From: Maribacter thermophilus
Lineage (GTDB): Bacteria > Bacteroidota > Bacteroidia > Flavobacteriales > Flavobacteriaceae
Length of the DNA: 64,000 bases
Assembly (NCBI RefSeq): GCF_001020565.1
Contig: NZ_LDAS01000001.1
Coordinates: 1,340,402-1,404,401, forward strand
Reading direction: 5' to 3'
Numbering within the stretch: the stretch's first letter is position 1; the number at the start of each line of letters is the position of its first letter. Position numbers and translations under genes: made by a program. Under the pieces are notes generated by a model, which made no database searches, was not told where the DNA came from, and worked only from the letters and a program-made list of their open reading frames with translations. This document shows positions 12,907 to 34,192 of the stretch, piece after piece.

Positions 12907-13467
12907 TTATTCAAGCGATACTACATCATTGTTTTTTAAGTAAACCGTAAGCCCATGTTCCTCGTTCCAACTACAATCAAAAAGCAACTCTAATTCATCA
13001 TCTTCTTGCCCAACACAAATGGTATTAATGCATAAATTTCGTTTTATGAATTCTTCGTTGGAAAACGTAGTTTGATGTAAAATTTCCATAGTTCTTTTCG
13101 CATATTCAAAATGTTTTGCAGCCGCATATGCCCCATTGTTTCCAAATGTATAGTCCACGACCGCATCCAATACTTTTTTTTCAATATTGACCGATTCTTT
13201 CACAAACGCTTCAATAGTCTCAAAATCACCAACCTTTTCCGACGCGTAAAAAGTTATCGTTTCTGCATTGGAACAAGGCTCTTCATAGTATTCATAAACA
13301 TCTGATTCGTCATACCATTCCGGACTATTTTCGGGATCTTCAAAATTTTCCGGGTTATAAAGGTTATAATAAACGTTCCAGTCCTTGAAAATAAAATTAG
13401 GTATCTCTACATCTATTTCTCCAACCTTTTCATTTTCTTCGTTAAGTTGCTTTAGTAGCATATTCAT
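12907..13467 (-). CDS. DUF6985/DUF2004-like protein, possibly immunity-type
   Basis: A 186-residue acidic soluble protein. The C-terminal part has LLFDCSWNEEHGLTVYLKN, which resembles the Cys-x-Trp-(D/N)-E-E-H-G-(L/V) signature I associate with DUF6985/DUF2004 proteins. Those are often found as stand-alone immunity-like genes in polymorphic-toxin or cassette settings. A helical segment of about 70 residues (KVLDAVVDYTFGNNGAYAAAKHFEYA) lies before it. No toxin is encoded next to it. The start at 13467 (MNM) could also be 13461. Function uncertain. Confidence 0.65.
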   Translation of the reverse strand: MNMLLKQLNEENEKVGEIDVEIPNFIFKDWNVYYNLYNPENFEDPENSPEWYDESDVYEYYEEPCSNAETITFYASEKVGDFETIEAFVKESVNIEKKVLDAVVDYTFGNNGAYAAAKHFEYAKRTMEILHQTTFSNEEFIKRNLCINTICVGQEDDELELLFDCSWNEEHGLTVYLKNNDVVSLE

Positions 13468-13645: not shown

Positions 13646-14206
13646 TTATTGCTTTCTCAGTAAAATAATGCTAAAACCAATGAGGGTTAGCGCATAACCA
13701 AAAACCAGTCGATAAGGCAACGGAATTATATGCCATAAAATAAGATTGGCCATGAACACCAAGATGATTCCTAATATACCTTTCTTCAAATAGTTGAAAC
13801 TTAAAATCAGTAATCCCAGATTAAAAATTTTTGAGCTCGGCCCAATGGTCACAAAAGGTTTCCAAATGGACGGAATTTTAGAGATATGTCCCGTGAATTC
13901 ATTTCTCATTTCCTCATCAGGAAAGCTCCACCAAATAAAGTCCAATACACACATTCCAATAATGCAAACAATACCAACGATGGTCAAGGGAATTCCTATC
14001 AAGCTATATATTTTTTTAGGAAAAGTCACTGTTTGGGGAATCAAAAAAGTTACTCCCACCAATAAAAACCAATGCGCAAAATCTATAGGTTCTTGGTTAT
14101 ATACAAAATGATTTCCCTGAGATAATAATATTTGGCCAATCAAAAAGAAAACAAGTCCGATCAGAAAGAGTATTCTATTGGTTATCTCATATGTTCTATC
14201 TTCCAT
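13646..14206 (-). CDS. Small integral membrane protein
   Basis: Unrecognised 186-residue protein with about six hydrophobic spans: ILFLIGLVFFLIGQILL, FAHWFLLVGVTFLI, LIGIPLTIVGIVCIIGMCVL, IFNLGLLILSFNYL, GILGIILVFMANLILWHI and LVFGYALTLIGFSIILL. There are no charged residues within the spans that would suggest an active site. It ends in the short basic tail LRKQ. Encoded as a single gene. Function unknown. Confidence 0.65.
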   Translation of the reverse strand: MEDRTYEITNRILFLIGLVFFLIGQILLSQGNHFVYNQEPIDFAHWFLLVGVTFLIPQTVTFPKKIYSLIGIPLTIVGIVCIIGMCVLDFIWWSFPDEEMRNEFTGHISKIPSIWKPFVTIGPSSKIFNLGLLILSFNYLKKGILGIILVFMANLILWHIIPLPYRLVFGYALTLIGFSIILLRKQ

Positions 14207-28551: not shown

Positions 28552-29214
28552 ATGACGAAGGCAGAAAAAGTGTCATTTGTAATTTCAACCCTACAAGAGC
28601 TTTACCCCGAAATACCGGTACCTTTGGACCATAAAGACCCTTACACATTATTGGTAGCCGTTCTTTTGTCCGCCCAAAGTACCGATGTACGCGTAAACAA
28701 GATAACGCCGTTGCTTTTTGAGAAAGCCGACAACCCCTTTGATATGGTAAAATTGACCGTTGAGGAAATTAGGGAAATTATAAAGCCCGTGGGTTTATCC
28801 CCCATGAAATCCAAAGGTATACACGGACTCTCTAAAATTCTTATAGAAAAATATAATGGCGAGGTACCAAAAGACATTAAACTGTTGGAAGAGCTGCCCG
28901 CAGTAGGCCACAAAACTGCAAGTGTAGTTGTTTCACAAGCCTTTGGTATACCCGCCTTTCCGGTAGATACGCATATTCACAGGCTTTTATATAGATGGGG
29001 ATTTACCAATGGTAAAAACGTGGTTCAAACAGAAAAAGATGCAAAAAGACTTTTTCCGAAAGAATTATGGAACAATCTGCACCTCCAGATTATATGGTAT
29101 GGGCGTGAATATTCCCCTGCAAGGGGCTGGGATCTTGAAAAAGACATTATTACCAAGACTATAGGAAGAAAAACAGTACTGCAAGAATATTATAACAAAA
29201 AAAAGACCCGCTAA
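28552..29214 (+). CDS. nth: Endonuclease III (Nth), form without Fe-S cluster
   Basis: Base-excision-repair DNA glycosylase/AP lyase, 220 residues. The helix-hairpin-helix and catalytic pair are intact: LPAVGHK121TASVVV with the Schiff-base lysine and the aspartate in FPVD139THIHR. The usual [4Fe-4S] ligands Cys-x6-Cys-x2-Cys-x5-Cys at the C-terminus are missing; the equivalent segment reads WYGREYSPARGWDLEKD, and the whole protein contains no cysteine. It therefore must fold without the cluster. The stop codon lies in the loop of a terminator hairpin. Confidence 0.94.
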   Translation: MTKAEKVSFVISTLQELYPEIPVPLDHKDPYTLLVAVLLSAQSTDVRVNKITPLLFEKADNPFDMVKLTVEEIREIIKPVGLSPMKSKGIHGLSKILIEKYNGEVPKDIKLLEELPAVGHKTASVVVSQAFGIPAFPVDTHIHRLLYRWGFTNGKNVVQTEKDAKRLFPKELWNNLHLQIIWYGREYSPARGWDLEKDIITKTIGRKTVLQEYYNKKKTR

Positions 29215-29228
29215 TGCGGGTCTTTTTT
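29205..29228. terminator. Bidirectional terminator overlapping the nth stop
   Basis: GACCCGC and GCGGGTC enclose TAAT, whose TAA is the nth stop codon, with A and T runs outside. It can also end the convergent transcript of the small 47-residue gene. Confidence 0.8.
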
Positions 29229-29370
29229 AATTTAAAAAGGTCTCAAACCTTAAATCTTTATATTCAACTTCATAAAGTGCTTGCGAAAAACTTAACAAAA
29301 AGTTTATTGTCTTCGGACATACTTTGCTAAATTCAGCCTTTTCCGGGTAATTAGTGTAAATTTTTTCCAT
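29227..29370 (-). CDS. 47-residue protein linked to a sigma factor (copy A)
   Basis: Small protein starting MEKIYTNYPEK, with the core CPKTINFLLSFSQAL and ending FETFLN. It aligns without gaps to the protein at 30366-30509: 19 of 47 residues are identical, including MEKIYT at the start, P19-x-T-I-x-F-L-L in the centre and L-N at the end. It lies 69 bases downstream of a sigma-factor gene on the same strand, as does its paralogue. No helix-turn-helix, zinc motif or membrane span is visible. A helix of about 14 residues (PKTINFLLSFSQAL) could bind a partner. Function unknown; an anti-sigma or adaptor role is only a guess. Confidence 0.75.
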   Translation of the reverse strand: MEKIYTNYPEKAEFSKVCPKTINFLLSFSQALYEVEYKDLRFETFLN

Positions 29371-29439
29371 ATTTCCAATGTTGTTACATTAAATTAACGT
29401 AACTACATCAGAAATATTGTTTCAACCGGTTACGGTCTT

Positions 29440-30036
29440 CTAATTTGTAAGCACTATATTGTTTTTCTCGATAATCTTTCTAAGGTTGATCAAAGCATAT
29501 CTCATTCTTCCAAGAGCAGTGTTTATACTTACTCCCGTGTTTTCTGAAATCTCTTTAAAGCTCATATCCTTATAGATACGCATAATCAAAACTTCTTTTT
29601 GATCATCTGGAAGTTCTTCTACCAACTCTCTCAAATCTGTATCTATCTGATCTTTTATCAATTGTTTTTCGGCATTCAACTTATCATCTCCGATAACGGA
29701 AAAAATATTGAAGTCATCGCTGCCCTCGAACATTGGCATTCTTTTGTTCTTTCTAAAGTGATCAATGATCAAGTTGTGAGAAATTCTCATTACCCATGGC
29801 AAGAACTTTCCCTCTTCACTGTAGCTACCTCTTTTCAAGGTCTTAATTACCTTGATAAAGGTATCTTGAAAAATATCTTCCGTTACATCCCTGTCCAATA
29901 CTTTAGAGTAAATAAAACTCGTAATACGTTGATTATGTCTGTTGATAAGGATTTCCAAGGCTTTTTCATCGCCACTGATATAATCTCTTACTAGTTCTGA
30001 ATCTTCTATTTGTAATTCCATATTAGTTGTTTTCAT
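29440..30036 (-). CDS. ECF-type sigma-70 family sigma factor (copy A)
   Basis: 198 residues with the two ECF regions. Region 2 runs over about residues 20-95 (SFIYSKVLDRDVTEDIFQDTFIKVIKTL, then LPWVMRISHNLIIDHFRK). Region 4 runs over about 135-190 (LPDDQKEVLIMRIYKDMSFKEISENTGVSINTALGRMRYALINLR), where the helix-turn-helix recognises -35-type elements. No C-terminal extension is present. It is a close paralogue of the gene at 30589. The start could also be the ATG five codons later (MELQIED). A 47-residue gene follows. No conventional anti-sigma gene is next to it. Confidence 0.92.
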   Translation of the reverse strand: MKTTNMELQIEDSELVRDYISGDEKALEILINRHNQRITSFIYSKVLDRDVTEDIFQDTFIKVIKTLKRGSYSEEGKFLPWVMRISHNLIIDHFRKNKRMPMFEGSDDFNIFSVIGDDKLNAEKQLIKDQIDTDLRELVEELPDDQKEVLIMRIYKDMSFKEISENTGVSINTALGRMRYALINLRKIIEKNNIVLTN

Positions 30037-30312
30037 TTAGGTGACTGGTTGGGGAATCCTGAGTTAATAATTATGATTAGTGTTTTAATTCTGAGATAAA
30101 ACTATATAAAACCCCTCCTGTAGGAAAAAGTATGTTGTCAAACTGGCTTTTTATGATGTGAAACAACGAAAACCTATTTCTCAGTACAATAAATAAGGGC
30201 TTTACTAGTTACTGGCGAAGAATACCAACATACTTATATTAAGGTATATACGATATTTCTAAGGCAAACCATCCTTATTATATATATATCCTTATATATC
30301 ATACCTATAAAG

Positions 30313-30346
30313 AAAAACCCCCAAGGAAAGTTCCTTGGGGGTTTTT
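30313..30346. terminator. Terminator between the two sigma modules
   Basis: AAAAACCCCCAAGGAA and TTCCTTGGGGGTTTTT are perfect 16-base arms. They lie 20 bases after the stop of the copy-B small gene on the minus strand. Confidence 0.88.
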
Positions 30347-30365
30347 ATATGATAGATTGTTTTTT

Positions 30366-30509
30366 CTAATTCAGATTACTCTCATATTTGATTCCATCTG
30401 CCTCCATCACTTGTAACGACTTAGAGTAATCCAGTAAAAACTTAATGGTCTCCGGTTTTGCCGATACTAATTTGTGTTTGTTTTTTTTGGTCGTGTAAAT
30501 TTTTTCCAT
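30366..30509 (-). CDS. 47-residue protein linked to a sigma factor (copy B)
   Basis: Small protein starting MEKIYTTKKNKHK with the core KPETIKFLLDYSKSL and ending YESNLN. It has the same length as the copy at 29227-29370 and 19 of 47 identical positions without gaps. It is 79 bases downstream of the second sigma-factor gene and is followed by a strong terminator, so it forms a unit with that gene. Conservation of start, centre and end in both copies argues for a real protein. Function unknown; the N-terminal half is basic. Confidence 0.78.
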   Translation of the reverse strand: MEKIYTTKKNKHKLVSAKPETIKFLLDYSKSLQVMEADGIKYESNLN

Positions 30510-30588
30510 ATTCCTCTTCGGTTTTTCTTGGTTCTATTCTACAACGCTAGAAAAATAAATATAGTAAAACTCTTCGACCTGTGACCAA

Positions 30589-31170
30589 TTAATCGGTCAA
30601 AACTATACTATTTGCTTCAACCAGCTTTCTAAGGTTGATCAGTGCGTATCGCATTCTACCCAATGCGGTGTTAATACTTACTCCCGTATTTTCCGATATT
30701 TCCTTAAAACTCATATCCTTGTACAAACGCATTTCCAATACTTCTTGTTGGTCTTCGGGCAGTTTTTTTATCAGTTTGGTCAAATCGGTTTCGATCTGTT
30801 CCTTTATTATCTGCTTTTCTACATTAAGGCGCTCATCTCCCATTAAAGAGAATACACTAAATACATCGGATCCTTCGAACATTGGCATTCTATTACTTTT
30901 TCTAAAGTGGTCTATTATAAGGTTATGGGCAATACGCATTACCCATGGAAGAAATTTACCCTCTTCGTTATACGCACCTCTTTTTAAGGTTCTGATAACT
31001 TTCATAAAAGTATCCTGAAAAATATCTTCGGTCAGTTCACGGTCACCTACCTTAGAATAGATAAAACCCGTTAAACGGGCATTGTGTTTATTGATAAGAA
31101 CCTCTATGGCTCTTTCATTACCATTAATATAATCCTGAACTAATTGGGAATCTTTAGTAGCCTGTGTCAT
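30589..31170 (-). CDS. ECF-type sigma-70 family sigma factor (copy B)
   Basis: 193 residues, with the same two regions as its neighbour at 29440. Long stretches match exactly, for example TEDIFQDTF, EEGKFLPWVMRI and KDMSFKEISENTGVSI. Region 2 is at about 15-90, region 4 at about 130-185. Differences are concentrated at the N-terminus and in the linker at about 105-135. It is probably the product of a tandem duplication that included the downstream 47-residue gene. A -7 box at 31291-31298 indicates its own promoter. Confidence 0.92.
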   Translation of the reverse strand: MTQATKDSQLVQDYINGNERAIEVLINKHNARLTGFIYSKVGDRELTEDIFQDTFMKVIRTLKRGAYNEEGKFLPWVMRIAHNLIIDHFRKSNRMPMFEGSDVFSVFSLMGDERLNVEKQIIKEQIETDLTKLIKKLPEDQQEVLEMRLYKDMSFKEISENTGVSINTALGRMRYALINLRKLVEANSIVLTD

Positions 31171-31414: not shown

Positions 31415-34192
31415 ATGCCCGTTATATCCCAAGTAAACCCCAAGAAGAACATCATCATTAAAGGTGCCAAACTTCATAACCTTAAGAATATCGATGTTGT
31501 AATCCCCAGAAATAAATTGGTAGTCATAACCGGACTTTCAGGGTCCGGTAAATCTAGTTTGACCTTTGATACGCTCTATGCCGAAGGGCAACGACGCTAT
31601 GTAGAAAGCCTTTCTTCATACGCCAGGCAGTTCTTGGGCAAATTGGATAAACCCAAGGTAGACTATATAAAAGGTATAGCCCCGGCCATTGCCATAGAGC
31701 AGAAAGTAAATTCAACCAACCCCAGATCCACGGTAGGTACCACCACCGAAATCTATGATTACATTAAATTGCTCTACGCCCGTATAGGAAAAACCTTCTC
31801 CCCAATATCTGGCGAAGAGGTCAAAAAAAATACCGTCTCGGATGTCATAAACTATGTAAAGTCTTTTGAAGAAAGCACCAAGCTGCTATTGCTGGCCCCT
31901 ATTCAGATAAGGGAAGACCGAGATTCTATAAAATCACTGGAGCTGTTTTCAAAACAAGGCTATGCACGTATAAAATATCAAGGAAAAGTGCTCAGAATAG
32001 ATCAGGCTCCCGCAGATATAGGTAAAGAGTTTGACCTTGTCGTGGATAGGATCATCACCAAAAATGACGAGGATTTTTACAATAGATTGGCAAATGCGGT
32101 AGATACTGCCTTTTTTGAAGGAAAGGGACAATGCATCATAGAATCCCTGAACGATTCGAACCAACGTTTATTCAGTAATAAATTTGAGCTTGACGGAATG
32201 CAGTTTTTAGAACCGAACGTCCATTTGTTCAGTTTTAACAATCCGTACGGTGCCTGTCCAAAATGTGAGGGTTATGGCGATGTAATCGGAATCGATGAAG
32301 ACTTGGTAGTGCCCAACACGGCGCTATCCGTTTATGAAAATGCCATTTTCCCTTGGCGGGGCGAAAGTATGAGCTGGTACAGAGATCAATTGGTAAACAA
32401 TTCCTATAAGTTCGATTTTCCGATACACAAGCCTTGGTTTGAGTTGAGCGATGAACAACGTACACTGGTATGGAACGGCAACGAGCACTTTATAGGATTA
32501 CACAAATTCTTTGAAACCTTAGAAGAGAAAAGCTACAAAATACAGAACAGGGTAATGCTTTCTCGTTACAGGGGCAAAACAAAATGTAACCTCTGCAACG
32601 GAAAACGATTGCGCAAAGAAGCAGATTATGTAAAAGTCGGAGGAACATCCATCTCTGAACTGGTAGAACTTTCAATAGAACGATTGATCGCATTTTTCGG
32701 ACAACTAGAACTAAGTGAACACGATCTAAAAGTTGCGGATAGGTTACTTAAAGAAATTAATACCCGACTCGGTTTTTTAGATAAAGTAGGTCTCAACTAC
32801 CTTACCTTGAACAGAAAATCGAATACCTTGTCCGGTGGTGAAAGCCAGCGTATAAATCTTGCCACGTCTTTGGGTAGTAGTCTAGTAGGTTCTATGTATA
32901 TACTAGATGAACCAAGTATTGGCCTACACCCAAAAGATACCGAAAACCTGATCGAAGTGTTGCTCTCTCTTCGAAATTTAGGCAATACCGTAATTGTAGT
33001 GGAACATGACGAGGATATCATGAAAGCTGCAGACCAAGTTATAGATATAGGGCCCGAAGCGGGCACCCATGGCGGAAAAGTAGTGGCACAAGGTACTTTG
33101 AAAGAGGTATTGAAATCTACTTCCCTAACGGCCAGTTATCTCAACGGCAGTATGGAAATTTCAATTCCGAAAGAAAGACGTACTTCTAAAAATTATATTG
33201 AAATTGTAGGATGTAGGGCCCATAACCTTAGAAATATCAACGTTACCTTTCCTTTAGATATGCTTACTGTGGTTACGGGAGTATCAGGAAGCGGTAAGAG
33301 TACCTTGGTAAAGAAACTATTGTATCCCATTATCTTAAAAGAAGTTGGCGGATATGGGGAAAAAGCCGGACAATTTACCTCTGTATCCGGCAAATACAAA
33401 CATATTAAACATGTAGAGTTCGTAGACCAAAACCCTATTGGCCGATCGTCGCGTTCCAACCCGGTAACCTATATAAAAGCCTACGATGACATCCGTAACC
33501 TTTTTGCGAACCAGAAGTTAAGTAAAATAAGAAATTACCAAGCAAAACATTTTTCTTTTAACGTAGACGGTGGACGGTGTGAGAAATGTAAAGGAGAAGG
33601 AGAAATTACCGTAGAGATGCAGTTCATGGCAGACGTTCATTTAGAATGTGACACCTGTGGCGGAAAACGTTTTAAAAAGGATGTACTGGAAGTTACCTTT
33701 AACAATGCCAATATAGATGACGTTCTAAACATGACCATTGACGATGCCATCGACTTTTTTGAAAAGGGACTACAAAATAAGATTGTTACAAAACTGAAAC
33801 CATTACAAGACGTTGGTTTGGGTTACGTAACCTTAGGACAATCTTCCTCTACCCTATCGGGTGGCGAAGCACAGCGAATTAAATTAGCATCATTTTTGGT
33901 AAAGGGATCCACAAAGGACAAGGCACTGTTCATTTTTGACGAACCAACTACCGGATTACACTTTCATGATATAAAAAAGTTGTTGAAATCATTTAATGCC
34001 CTCATTAAAAAAGGACATTCCATAGTAGTTATAGAGCACAATATTGAACTTATAAAATGTGCAGATTATATAATTGACCTAGGTCCGGGGGGTGGAGAAA
34101 ATGGTGGACAATTATTGGCTGAAGGCACTCCAGAAGAGGTCGCAAAAAGCAAAAAATCTTTTACCGCCAAATACCTAAAAGAGAAGCTTTAA
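31415..34192 (+). CDS. uvrA: Excinuclease ABC subunit A (UvrA)
   Basis: DNA-damage recognition ATPase of nucleotide-excision repair, 925 residues, close to the usual length. Two ABC cassettes are visible. The first has Walker A at 40-47 (GLSGSGKS) and the signature LSGGESQR; the second has GVSGSGKS and LSGGEAQR. The UvrB-binding/zinc modules are present: CPKCEGYG with CNLCNGKRL in the first half, and CEKCKGEG with CDTCGGKRF in the second. Both Walker B segments (YILDEPSIGLHP, FIFDEPTTGLH) are intact. It works in the cytoplasm with UvrB and UvrC, which are not in the window. Single gene. Confidence 0.97.
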   Translation: MPVISQVNPKKNIIIKGAKLHNLKNIDVVIPRNKLVVITGLSGSGKSSLTFDTLYAEGQRRYVESLSSYARQFLGKLDKPKVDYIKGIAPAIAIEQKVNSTNPRSTVGTTTEIYDYIKLLYARIGKTFSPISGEEVKKNTVSDVINYVKSFEESTKLLLLAPIQIREDRDSIKSLELFSKQGYARIKYQGKVLRIDQAPADIGKEFDLVVDRIITKNDEDFYNRLANAVDTAFFEGKGQCIIESLNDSNQRLFSNKFELDGMQFLEPNVHLFSFNNPYGACPKCEGYGDVIGIDEDLVVPNTALSVYENAIFPWRGESMSWYRDQLVNNSYKFDFPIHKPWFELSDEQRTLVWNGNEHFIGLHKFFETLEEKSYKIQNRVMLSRYRGKTKCNLCNGKRLRKEADYVKVGGTSISELVELSIERLIAFFGQLELSEHDLKVADRLLKEINTRLGFLDKVGLNYLTLNRKSNTLSGGESQRINLATSLGSSLVGSMYILDEPSIGLHPKDTENLIEVLLSLRNLGNTVIVVEHDEDIMKAADQVIDIGPEAGTHGGKVVAQGTLKEVLKSTSLTASYLNGSMEISIPKERRTSKNYIEIVGCRAHNLRNINVTFPLDMLTVVTGVSGSGKSTLVKKLLYPIILKEVGGYGEKAGQFTSVSGKYKHIKHVEFVDQNPIGRSSRSNPVTYIKAYDDIRNLFANQKLSKIRNYQAKHFSFNVDGGRCEKCKGEGEITVEMQFMADVHLECDTCGGKRFKKDVLEVTFNNANIDDVLNMTIDDAIDFFEKGLQNKIVTKLKPLQDVGLGYVTLGQSSSTLSGGEAQRIKLASFLVKGSTKDKALFIFDEPTTGLHFHDIKKLLKSFNALIKKGHSIVVIEHNIELIKCADYIIDLGPGGGENGGQLLAEGTPEEVAKSKKSFTAKYLKEKL

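Follow-up and report, generated by a model that had tools for sequence, protein, structure and literature searches.

In published complexes of the class I anti-sigma domain (ASDI; RseA, RsiW, ChrR, RskA), helices 1-3 contact sigma4 and helix 4 sits on sigma regions 2.1/2.2, so that RNA polymerase is blocked; helix 4 is the more variable, specificity-setting part (excerpts of PMC7406223). Class II factors of the CnrY/NepR type are very small sigma-binding segments; the two helices of CnrY embrace both sigma domains, with the last helix on sigma2, and this segment can inhibit (excerpts of PMC7406223 and PMC4598750). CfrX of Pseudomonas aeruginosa is a small soluble putative anti-sigma factor of the extracytoplasmic function (ECF) sigma factor SigX (excerpt of PMC8999054), and in Bacteroides and Phocaeicola the ECF sigma factor EcfO has an unusual partner, Reo, which spans the inner membrane, periplasm and outer membrane (excerpt of PMC13114119). 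In a survey of ECF sigma factors, anti-sigma domains stood beside 6% of those from Bacteroidetes versus 32% overall, and the regulation of the rest was left open in the sections drawn on here (PMC7406223). We describe two tandem modules, each an ECF-type sigma factor gene followed by a gene for a protein of 47 amino acids (aa), in a 64,000-nucleotide stretch of the Maribacter thermophilus genome (contig NZ_LDAS01000001.1, positions 1,340,402 to 1,404,401), referred to as the window. We propose, with a probability of roughly 0.6, that each module is a pair of a sigma factor and a miniature anti-sigma factor derived from a class I anti-sigma factor.

The original prediction for this region, made from its letters alone, described two sigma paralogues in a row, each followed on the same strand by a gene of 47 codons, and the coordinates in Table 1 agree with it. 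The two small proteins align without gaps, as had been stated, with 19 of 47 residues identical (BLASTP E 9e-12, a single comparison). The absence of a conventional anti-sigma gene also holds for both modules, and the small open reading frames (ORFs) gave zero matches against Pfam and NCBIfam even at E 10. Conservation of the arrangement was examined in 159 sigma copies of at least 60% identity, drawn from 80 loci and a further 30 loci of the genus; this set is centred on Flavobacteriaceae, and some species are present in both parts. The small gene lies downstream of all 159 copies. A fixed rule located 157 of them; one (L025; L, G and f numbers denote loci, genomes and families) was missed by the rule but seen on reading, and at L081 a first impression of a partnerless sigma factor was overturned by a small gene at a gap of 409 nucleotides (nt). 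Spacing between the sigma gene and the small gene is 51-79 nt in 151 of 157 copies, and 108 of 132 different small proteins are exactly 47 aa long, so the match in length between the two window copies is what the family usually shows.

Median ratios of nonsynonymous to synonymous substitution rates (dN/dS) are 0.10 for small gene copy 1, 0.06 for copy 2 and about 0.02 for the sigma factors. The ratio of the proportions of nonsynonymous and synonymous differences (pN/pS) exceeds 1 in both alternative frames of the small ORF, and variation falls mostly at third positions. The small gene is under purifying selection, in its own frame only. Two modules are present in 19 of the 80 loci (18 by count, plus L025). 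Among the 18, the nearest neighbour is the same copy for 36/36 small proteins and 34/36 sigma factors, and identity between copies is 38-60% for the small proteins and 71-83% for the sigma factors. By these measures the small proteins and the sigma factors have diverged in concert, the small protein faster, as would be expected if a helix of the small protein sets specificity. The pairing of small gene and sigma factor is neither an artefact nor a mere Maribacter duplication. The original prediction had reasoned from the shared duplication that the small gene is important for how the sigma factor works, and had named gene neighbourhood and substitution patterns as checks; adjacency in every copy of the Flavobacteriaceae-centred set and purifying selection support that reasoning on both counts.

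The slot after the sigma gene holds proteins of graded size across the Bacteroidota. In other classes of the phylum, 15 of 17 loci carry a protein of 181-287 aa that starts -35 to +85 nt from the sigma stop and has an N-terminal part such as IRYLMKEMDPSEELEFEKQMREDEDLLIEVESL (L252). When a membrane stretch was defined as a Kyte-Doolittle hydropathy of at least 1.6 over 19 residues, 12 of these 15 reached the limit, near residue 82-101. Soluble proteins of 72-80 aa are found in Bacteroidia outside the order Flavobacteriales (e.g. L233, MIQTFTPDDVIRYVYEETTDEENTLIEDALIGDQELLEFYLDTLEIKSLMTKIERAPSNRAVSNILEYSRNY...), and the soluble class as a whole (72-88 aa) resembles an anti-sigma domain. Two 88-aa proteins from one family of the order (L165 and L166) carry the N-terminal anti-sigma-like part and the full C-terminal motif together, and in many intermediates of 52-80 aa the middle is worn away. 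Proteins of 41-50 aa occupy the slot in Flavobacteriaceae and families f2, f3, f4 and f6, and proteins of 56-69 aa in f10 and f14. None of the 76 scored partners among these shorter forms exceeds a hydropathy of 1.6; the 19-residue maxima of the window proteins are 0.77 and 0.32. The short forms retain a start, M-x-K-x-[YF]-[ST], and a last helix, P..ET[IV].FLL.YSK.L, which corresponds by position to anti-sigma helix 4. Across the whole series a start like M-x-[KNQ]-x-[FYST]-[ST] and a helix P....[TSV][IV]..IL.YS[KR] are mostly retained. The Flavobacteriales forms have a C-terminal hairpin that ends in a near-invariant LN, without counterpart in the soluble forms of f21-f23. In those three families (L241, L243, L244, L246, L267, L268, L233) the anti-sigma-like ORF overlaps the sigma gene out of frame, its start lying within the 3' end of that gene; L244 and L268 (f21) had been taken for an independent second reduction, to 39 aa, and this was withdrawn once the true ORF, starting in the sigma 3' end, proved to encode a full anti-sigma-like protein.

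Neighbouring steps of the series are linked by profile-profile alignment with hhalign, in which each probability (P) and E-value is that of a single comparison. The 47-aa proteins match the intermediates (P 98.5, E 3.9e-15), the intermediates match the soluble forms (P 97.0, E 8.4e-11) and the soluble forms match the transmembrane forms (P 97.4, E 1.3e-11), while the 47-aa proteins also match the soluble forms directly (P 86.7, E 4.4e-6). For each of these four links, 0/200 column shuffles and no reversal reached the real score. Against a 17-member alignment of soluble forms and three transmembrane forms, the 47-aa proteins gave P 81 and E 1.2e-5. Three of three transmembrane forms tested match the NCBIfam model NF052375, 'anti-sigma factor', at E 2.6e-12, 5.3e-10 and 3.6e-6, and in the 17-member alignment 7 members match NF052375 and 7 match NF010501, 'putative anti-sigmaE protein', at E <=1, these being the top two families. 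In a sigma tree built with FastTree and rooted on other classes, L165/L166 fall within the clade of the order (support 98), a position consistent with shrinkage inside Bacteroidia. Of the inner branches of this tree, 53 of 143 are open, and some partner labels are wrong (L244/L268 as 'mini'; L228 and L231 as 'none', their partners being filed under the duplicates L185 and L195; L291, L296 and L309 as 'none'), and for these reasons we claim no number of independent reductions. These comparisons make descent of the 47-aa protein from a class I anti-sigma factor fairly well supported, and the change would have run from large to small. In other Bacteroidota this slot is occupied by longer anti-sigma-like proteins, profile-linked stepwise to the 47-aa form, and for that reason anti-sigma is now the favoured role among those originally offered for the small protein.

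An AlphaFold2 model of small protein 2, built from 82 sequences, predicts a helix and a hairpin (strands 32-37 and 40-45), with a mean predicted local distance difference test score (pLDDT) of 82, block values of 76, 90 and 92 for residues 11-20, 21-30 and 31-40, and a predicted template modelling score of 0.47. A Foldseek search with this model returned no match at E 0.001. The position of the 47-aa protein beside an ECF sigma gene, its stepwise profile similarity and the segment it keeps, which by position corresponds to the sigma2-binding helix 4 (excerpts of PMC7406223), are all like ASDI. Unlike ASDI, it is without helices 1-3 and a membrane anchor, no zinc-ligand motif was seen in it, and a hairpin follows the helix. 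With one predicted helix (19-31) and a hairpin it is too short for the helix 1-3 bundle of the four-helix domain, and because that domain is absent we do not file it as a class I member. Nor does the single predicted helix make it a class II protein, which has two; the resemblance to CnrY, like that to CfrX, which comes from another phylum, is one of description. EcfO-Reo is likewise a Bacteroidota ECF sigma factor with an unusual partner, and identity with that system was rejected, since Reo spans both membranes and the 47-aa protein has no membrane stretch. No title or opening of an abstract describing this small protein was found in a literature search whose coverage mostly left out subscription journals.

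A fuller version of the proposal, for which we put the odds a little short of even, holds that a free-standing helix 4 with a hairpin, 41-50 aa long, still works as an anti-sigma factor and has been conserved in Flavobacteriaceae and related families. It would have arisen by stepwise shrinkage of a transmembrane class I anti-sigma factor and have escaped notice because its size puts it below the reach of the family models searched. In either version the membrane anchor and periplasmic part would have been lost first, then the bundle of helices 1-3 that grips sigma domain 4, leaving the last helix and, in Flavobacteriales, the C-terminal beta-hairpin. The retained helix would be predicted to sit on sigma region 2.1/2.2, the docking surface for the beta' clamp of RNA polymerase, so that a sigma factor bound by the small protein would be barred from the core enzyme until something in the cytoplasm, for instance turnover of the small protein, released it. 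The unit as a whole was duplicated in Maribacter and relatives, each small protein diverging with its own sigma factor. We infer binding, binding site, inhibition and release signal from these parallels; given the placement of helix 4 in the published ASDI complexes and inhibition by the two helices of CnrY, a stand-alone helix 4 could still occlude sigma2, perhaps more weakly.

The reach of the family was assessed with a profile (A1) built from 48 small proteins. In its own genome, A1 finds the two copies at 4e-21 and 1e-16, and the next match has E 0.2. At E <=0.01 it matches 161 of 246 genomes and 61 of 74 genera of the order; among the genomes listed, all 53 of the same family match, and the 20 listed of the 85 non-matching genomes all belong to other families. 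In a sample of the phylum 42 of 198 genomes match at E <=0.1, and outside the class 11 of 12 matching genomes have hits to a long ORF or across a stop, which look chance-like. An iterated profile takes 268 of 18,661 six-frame ORFs from loci that hold the sigma factor: 264 lie directly downstream of it on the same strand, and the remaining 4 are too close to the locus edge for a whole upstream sigma gene. Around profile hits at or beyond the rim of the family, 28 of 39 loci have a sigma gene and 11 do not; 8 of the 11 look chance-like, and L173, L186 and L187 look like real partners. Among 75 loci of Bacteroidia outside the order, a partner was scored in 38 and recognised by eye in 10, with plausible unscored candidates in 3 (L291, L296, L309).

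Several results weigh against the proposal that the 47-aa protein is a miniature anti-sigma factor of class I descent. Direct hhalign comparison with the transmembrane forms is negative both for the 47-aa proteins (P 0.5) and for the intermediates (P 2.9), the link passing through the soluble forms. The NCBIfam matches to anti-sigma families given above all lie under the curated cut-offs (100 bits for NF052375). Pfam gives nothing above cut-off (zf-HC2 in 2 of 17 members, best E 0.022), and a profile search of the PDB gave no significant match, with RskA at E 0.52. Three of the 15 'transmembrane' forms (L250, L258, L262) fall below the hydropathy limit, at 1.02, 1.41 and 1.56. With helices 1-3 absent, the sigma4 contact of the known ECF anti-sigma classes is gone, and the remnant may therefore not inhibit. 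A single-chain read-through model of sigma 2 and small protein 2 has a mean pLDDT of 63 and a low-confidence linker; the helix and hairpin of the small protein recur in it (block pLDDT 84, 83 and 73), and Foldseek matches it to ECF sigma factors in the PDB (best 8z6g, E 2.7e-06), several of them solved with anti-sigma factors. A mean-field direct coupling analysis covered 263 pairs, with an effective number of 140. At neither of two cluster limits did any of 25 permutations reach the observed mean of the top 20 scores; the top intra-sigma couplings are implausible as contacts, and we therefore make no claim of coevolution.

Linkage to the sigma factor also has exceptions that count on the same side. 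The specificity count above spans only loci that hold a sigma gene. Partner-like ORFs stand apart from the sigma gene in G054 (L173, E 1.3e-5), G317 (L186, E 0.002) and G282 (L187, E 0.003), the sigma gene being on another contig in the first two and 1.47 Mb away in the third; in all three the pair seems to have been split yet retained. In G282 (L227) the sigma gene is followed by a transposase-like ORF of about 456 aa. No partner was found within reach in 24 of the 75 Bacteroidia loci outside the order, including 12/12 of families f17 and f18 (L234-L239, L242, L245, L247-L249, L266), in which the sigma factor persists with no recognisable downstream partner.

The loss of the sigma4-binding bundle, and with it half of the known inhibitory contact, would also fit a remnant that has changed role and binds its sigma factor to help rather than block it, as a chaperone, stabiliser or recruitment factor, much as Crl does. 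The Flavobacteriales hairpin with its LN end, lacking in the soluble forms of f21-f23, points the same way, whereas profile similarity leads to anti-sigma-like proteins and in published complexes it is helix 4 that covers the surface by which sigma binds the polymerase (excerpts of PMC7406223); we regard a change of role as rather unlikely. One helix combined with a conserved end apart from it is what might be expected of a two-ended tether or adaptor that hands the sigma factor to a protease or localises it, controlling its amount over its activity. This idea is without positive support, protease-recognition features not having been searched for, and we consider it improbable.

The negative comparison between the 47-aa and transmembrane forms is what would be seen if the longer proteins in the slot were unrelated genes and the size series a positional coincidence beside a separate small family. 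Against this stand the shuffle controls on all four hhalign links and bridging proteins such as those at L307, L165 and L166, in each of which a single ORF combines the C-terminal motif with an anti-sigma-like N-terminal part, and we judge coincidence somewhat less probable still than an adaptor. Short spacing, together with the terminator that closely follows the small gene in the window, would be compatible with an alternative in which the sigma mRNA carries a conserved RNA or translation-coupling element at its 3' end and the peptide is irrelevant. Selection acts on the peptide, however, as the dN/dS and pN/pS values and third-position variation given above indicate, the peptide is recognisable across families, and an Rfam search found no match; an RNA element was rejected on the dN/dS values and the Rfam result and is very improbable.

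The larger gene of each module encodes an ECF sigma factor, as originally predicted: both proteins pass the Pfam curated cut-offs for Sigma70_r2 (PF04542) and Sigma70_r4_2 (PF08281), and both have regions 2 and 4 only in about 200 aa. They are mutual nearest relatives within their genome, with 74% identity and the next best at 28%, and the closest outside sequence to copy 1 is from Maribacter sp. MMG018 (98%). The tandem pair, two sigma genes each, is present in 35 of 36 genomes of the genus searched, the exception being a genome that is 83% complete. Beyond the genus the sigma factor is found, mostly singly, in 120 of 247 genomes of the phylum (E 1e-30) and 268 of 296 Bacteroidia genomes (E 1e-40). 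This widespread sigma factor has a partner throughout the Flavobacteriaceae-centred set and at 48 of the 75 Bacteroidia loci outside the order, at sizes below Pfam and NCBIfam recognition, which, if the partner is an anti-sigma factor, would help to explain the seeming lack of anti-sigma genes by Bacteroidota ECF sigma factors. If the remnant still inhibits, it would define a minimal sufficient anti-sigma factor and offer a route to other hidden regulators, and the two Maribacter modules would be a natural experiment on whether helix 4 alone sets specificity.

A possible function for the sigma factor comes from Riemerella anatipestifer, in which deletion of RA0C_1534 reduces survival in H2O2, and both H2O2 and iron limitation induce the gene (excerpts of PMC6557517). 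The published quantitative PCR primers for RA0C_1534 translate to AKRIAH and DHISEPT, and AKRIAH is present in 6 of the 9 printed orthologues of family f4, presumably the Weeksellaceae. Judged from these two primer sequences, RA0C_1534 is a probable orthologue of the Maribacter sigma factor, and its link to H2O2 survival and induction suggests an oxidative-stress role. The term 'anti-sigma' is absent from the main text of that paper. Upstream of the sigma genes, 45 of 157 regions match a housekeeping-type promoter and 8 of 157 an AAC/CGT pattern, both counts being without a shuffled control.

The two modules, both on the minus strand (Table 1), fill the interval between a divergent gene starting at 31415 and a convergent gene ending at 29214. 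These we take to be uvrA and nth, and a further neighbour bcp, from recognition of their proteins rather than a family search. In the 80 loci, inspected with 3-kb flanks, uvrA and nth are each present in 77 and bcp in 75, with the three together in 72; the neighbourhood is old.

Table 1. Features of the two sigma modules in the window (window coordinates)
Feature	Position	Strand	Evidence
ECF-type sigma factor copy 1 (upstream module), 193 aa	30589..31170	-	Pfam Sigma70_r2 E 2.1e-14, Sigma70_r4_2 E 9.8e-11
Small partner gene copy 1, 47 aa, begins 79 nt past sigma stop	30366..30509	-	Profile A1, own genome, E 4.0e-21; median dN/dS 0.10
Predicted helix segment of small protein 1, residues 19-31, positional equivalent of anti-sigma helix 4	30417..30455	-	Ungapped alignment to copy 2 and AlphaFold2 model of copy 2
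Intrinsic terminator, module 1	30313..30346	-	15-pair hairpin and T-run, RNA fold -24.7 kcal/mol; not listed by pattern scan
ECF-type sigma factor copy 2 (downstream module), 198 aa	29440..30036	-	Pfam Sigma70_r2 E 3.4e-13; 74% identity to copy 1
Small partner gene copy 2, 47 aa, begins 69 nt past sigma stop	29227..29370	-	Profile A1, own genome, E 1.0e-16; median dN/dS 0.06
Predicted helix of small protein 2, residues 19-31	29278..29316	-	AlphaFold2 helix 19-31; aligned to last helix of 72-88 aa anti-sigma-like relatives
Predicted beta-hairpin of small protein 2, residues 32-45	29236..29277	-	AlphaFold2 strands 32-37 and 40-45
Terminator after module 2, overlapping 3' end of small gene 2 and end of convergent nth	29199..29228	-	Pattern scan and RNA fold

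The original prediction assigned each module its own terminator. This stands for module 1; the terminator after module 2 is not that module's alone, since it overlaps the end of the convergent nth, and is probably common to both. Elsewhere in the window, two adjacent same-strand ORFs of 186 aa each (12907-13467 and 13646-14206) have a similar tandem appearance yet no mutual similarity, and the first of them matches DUF6985.

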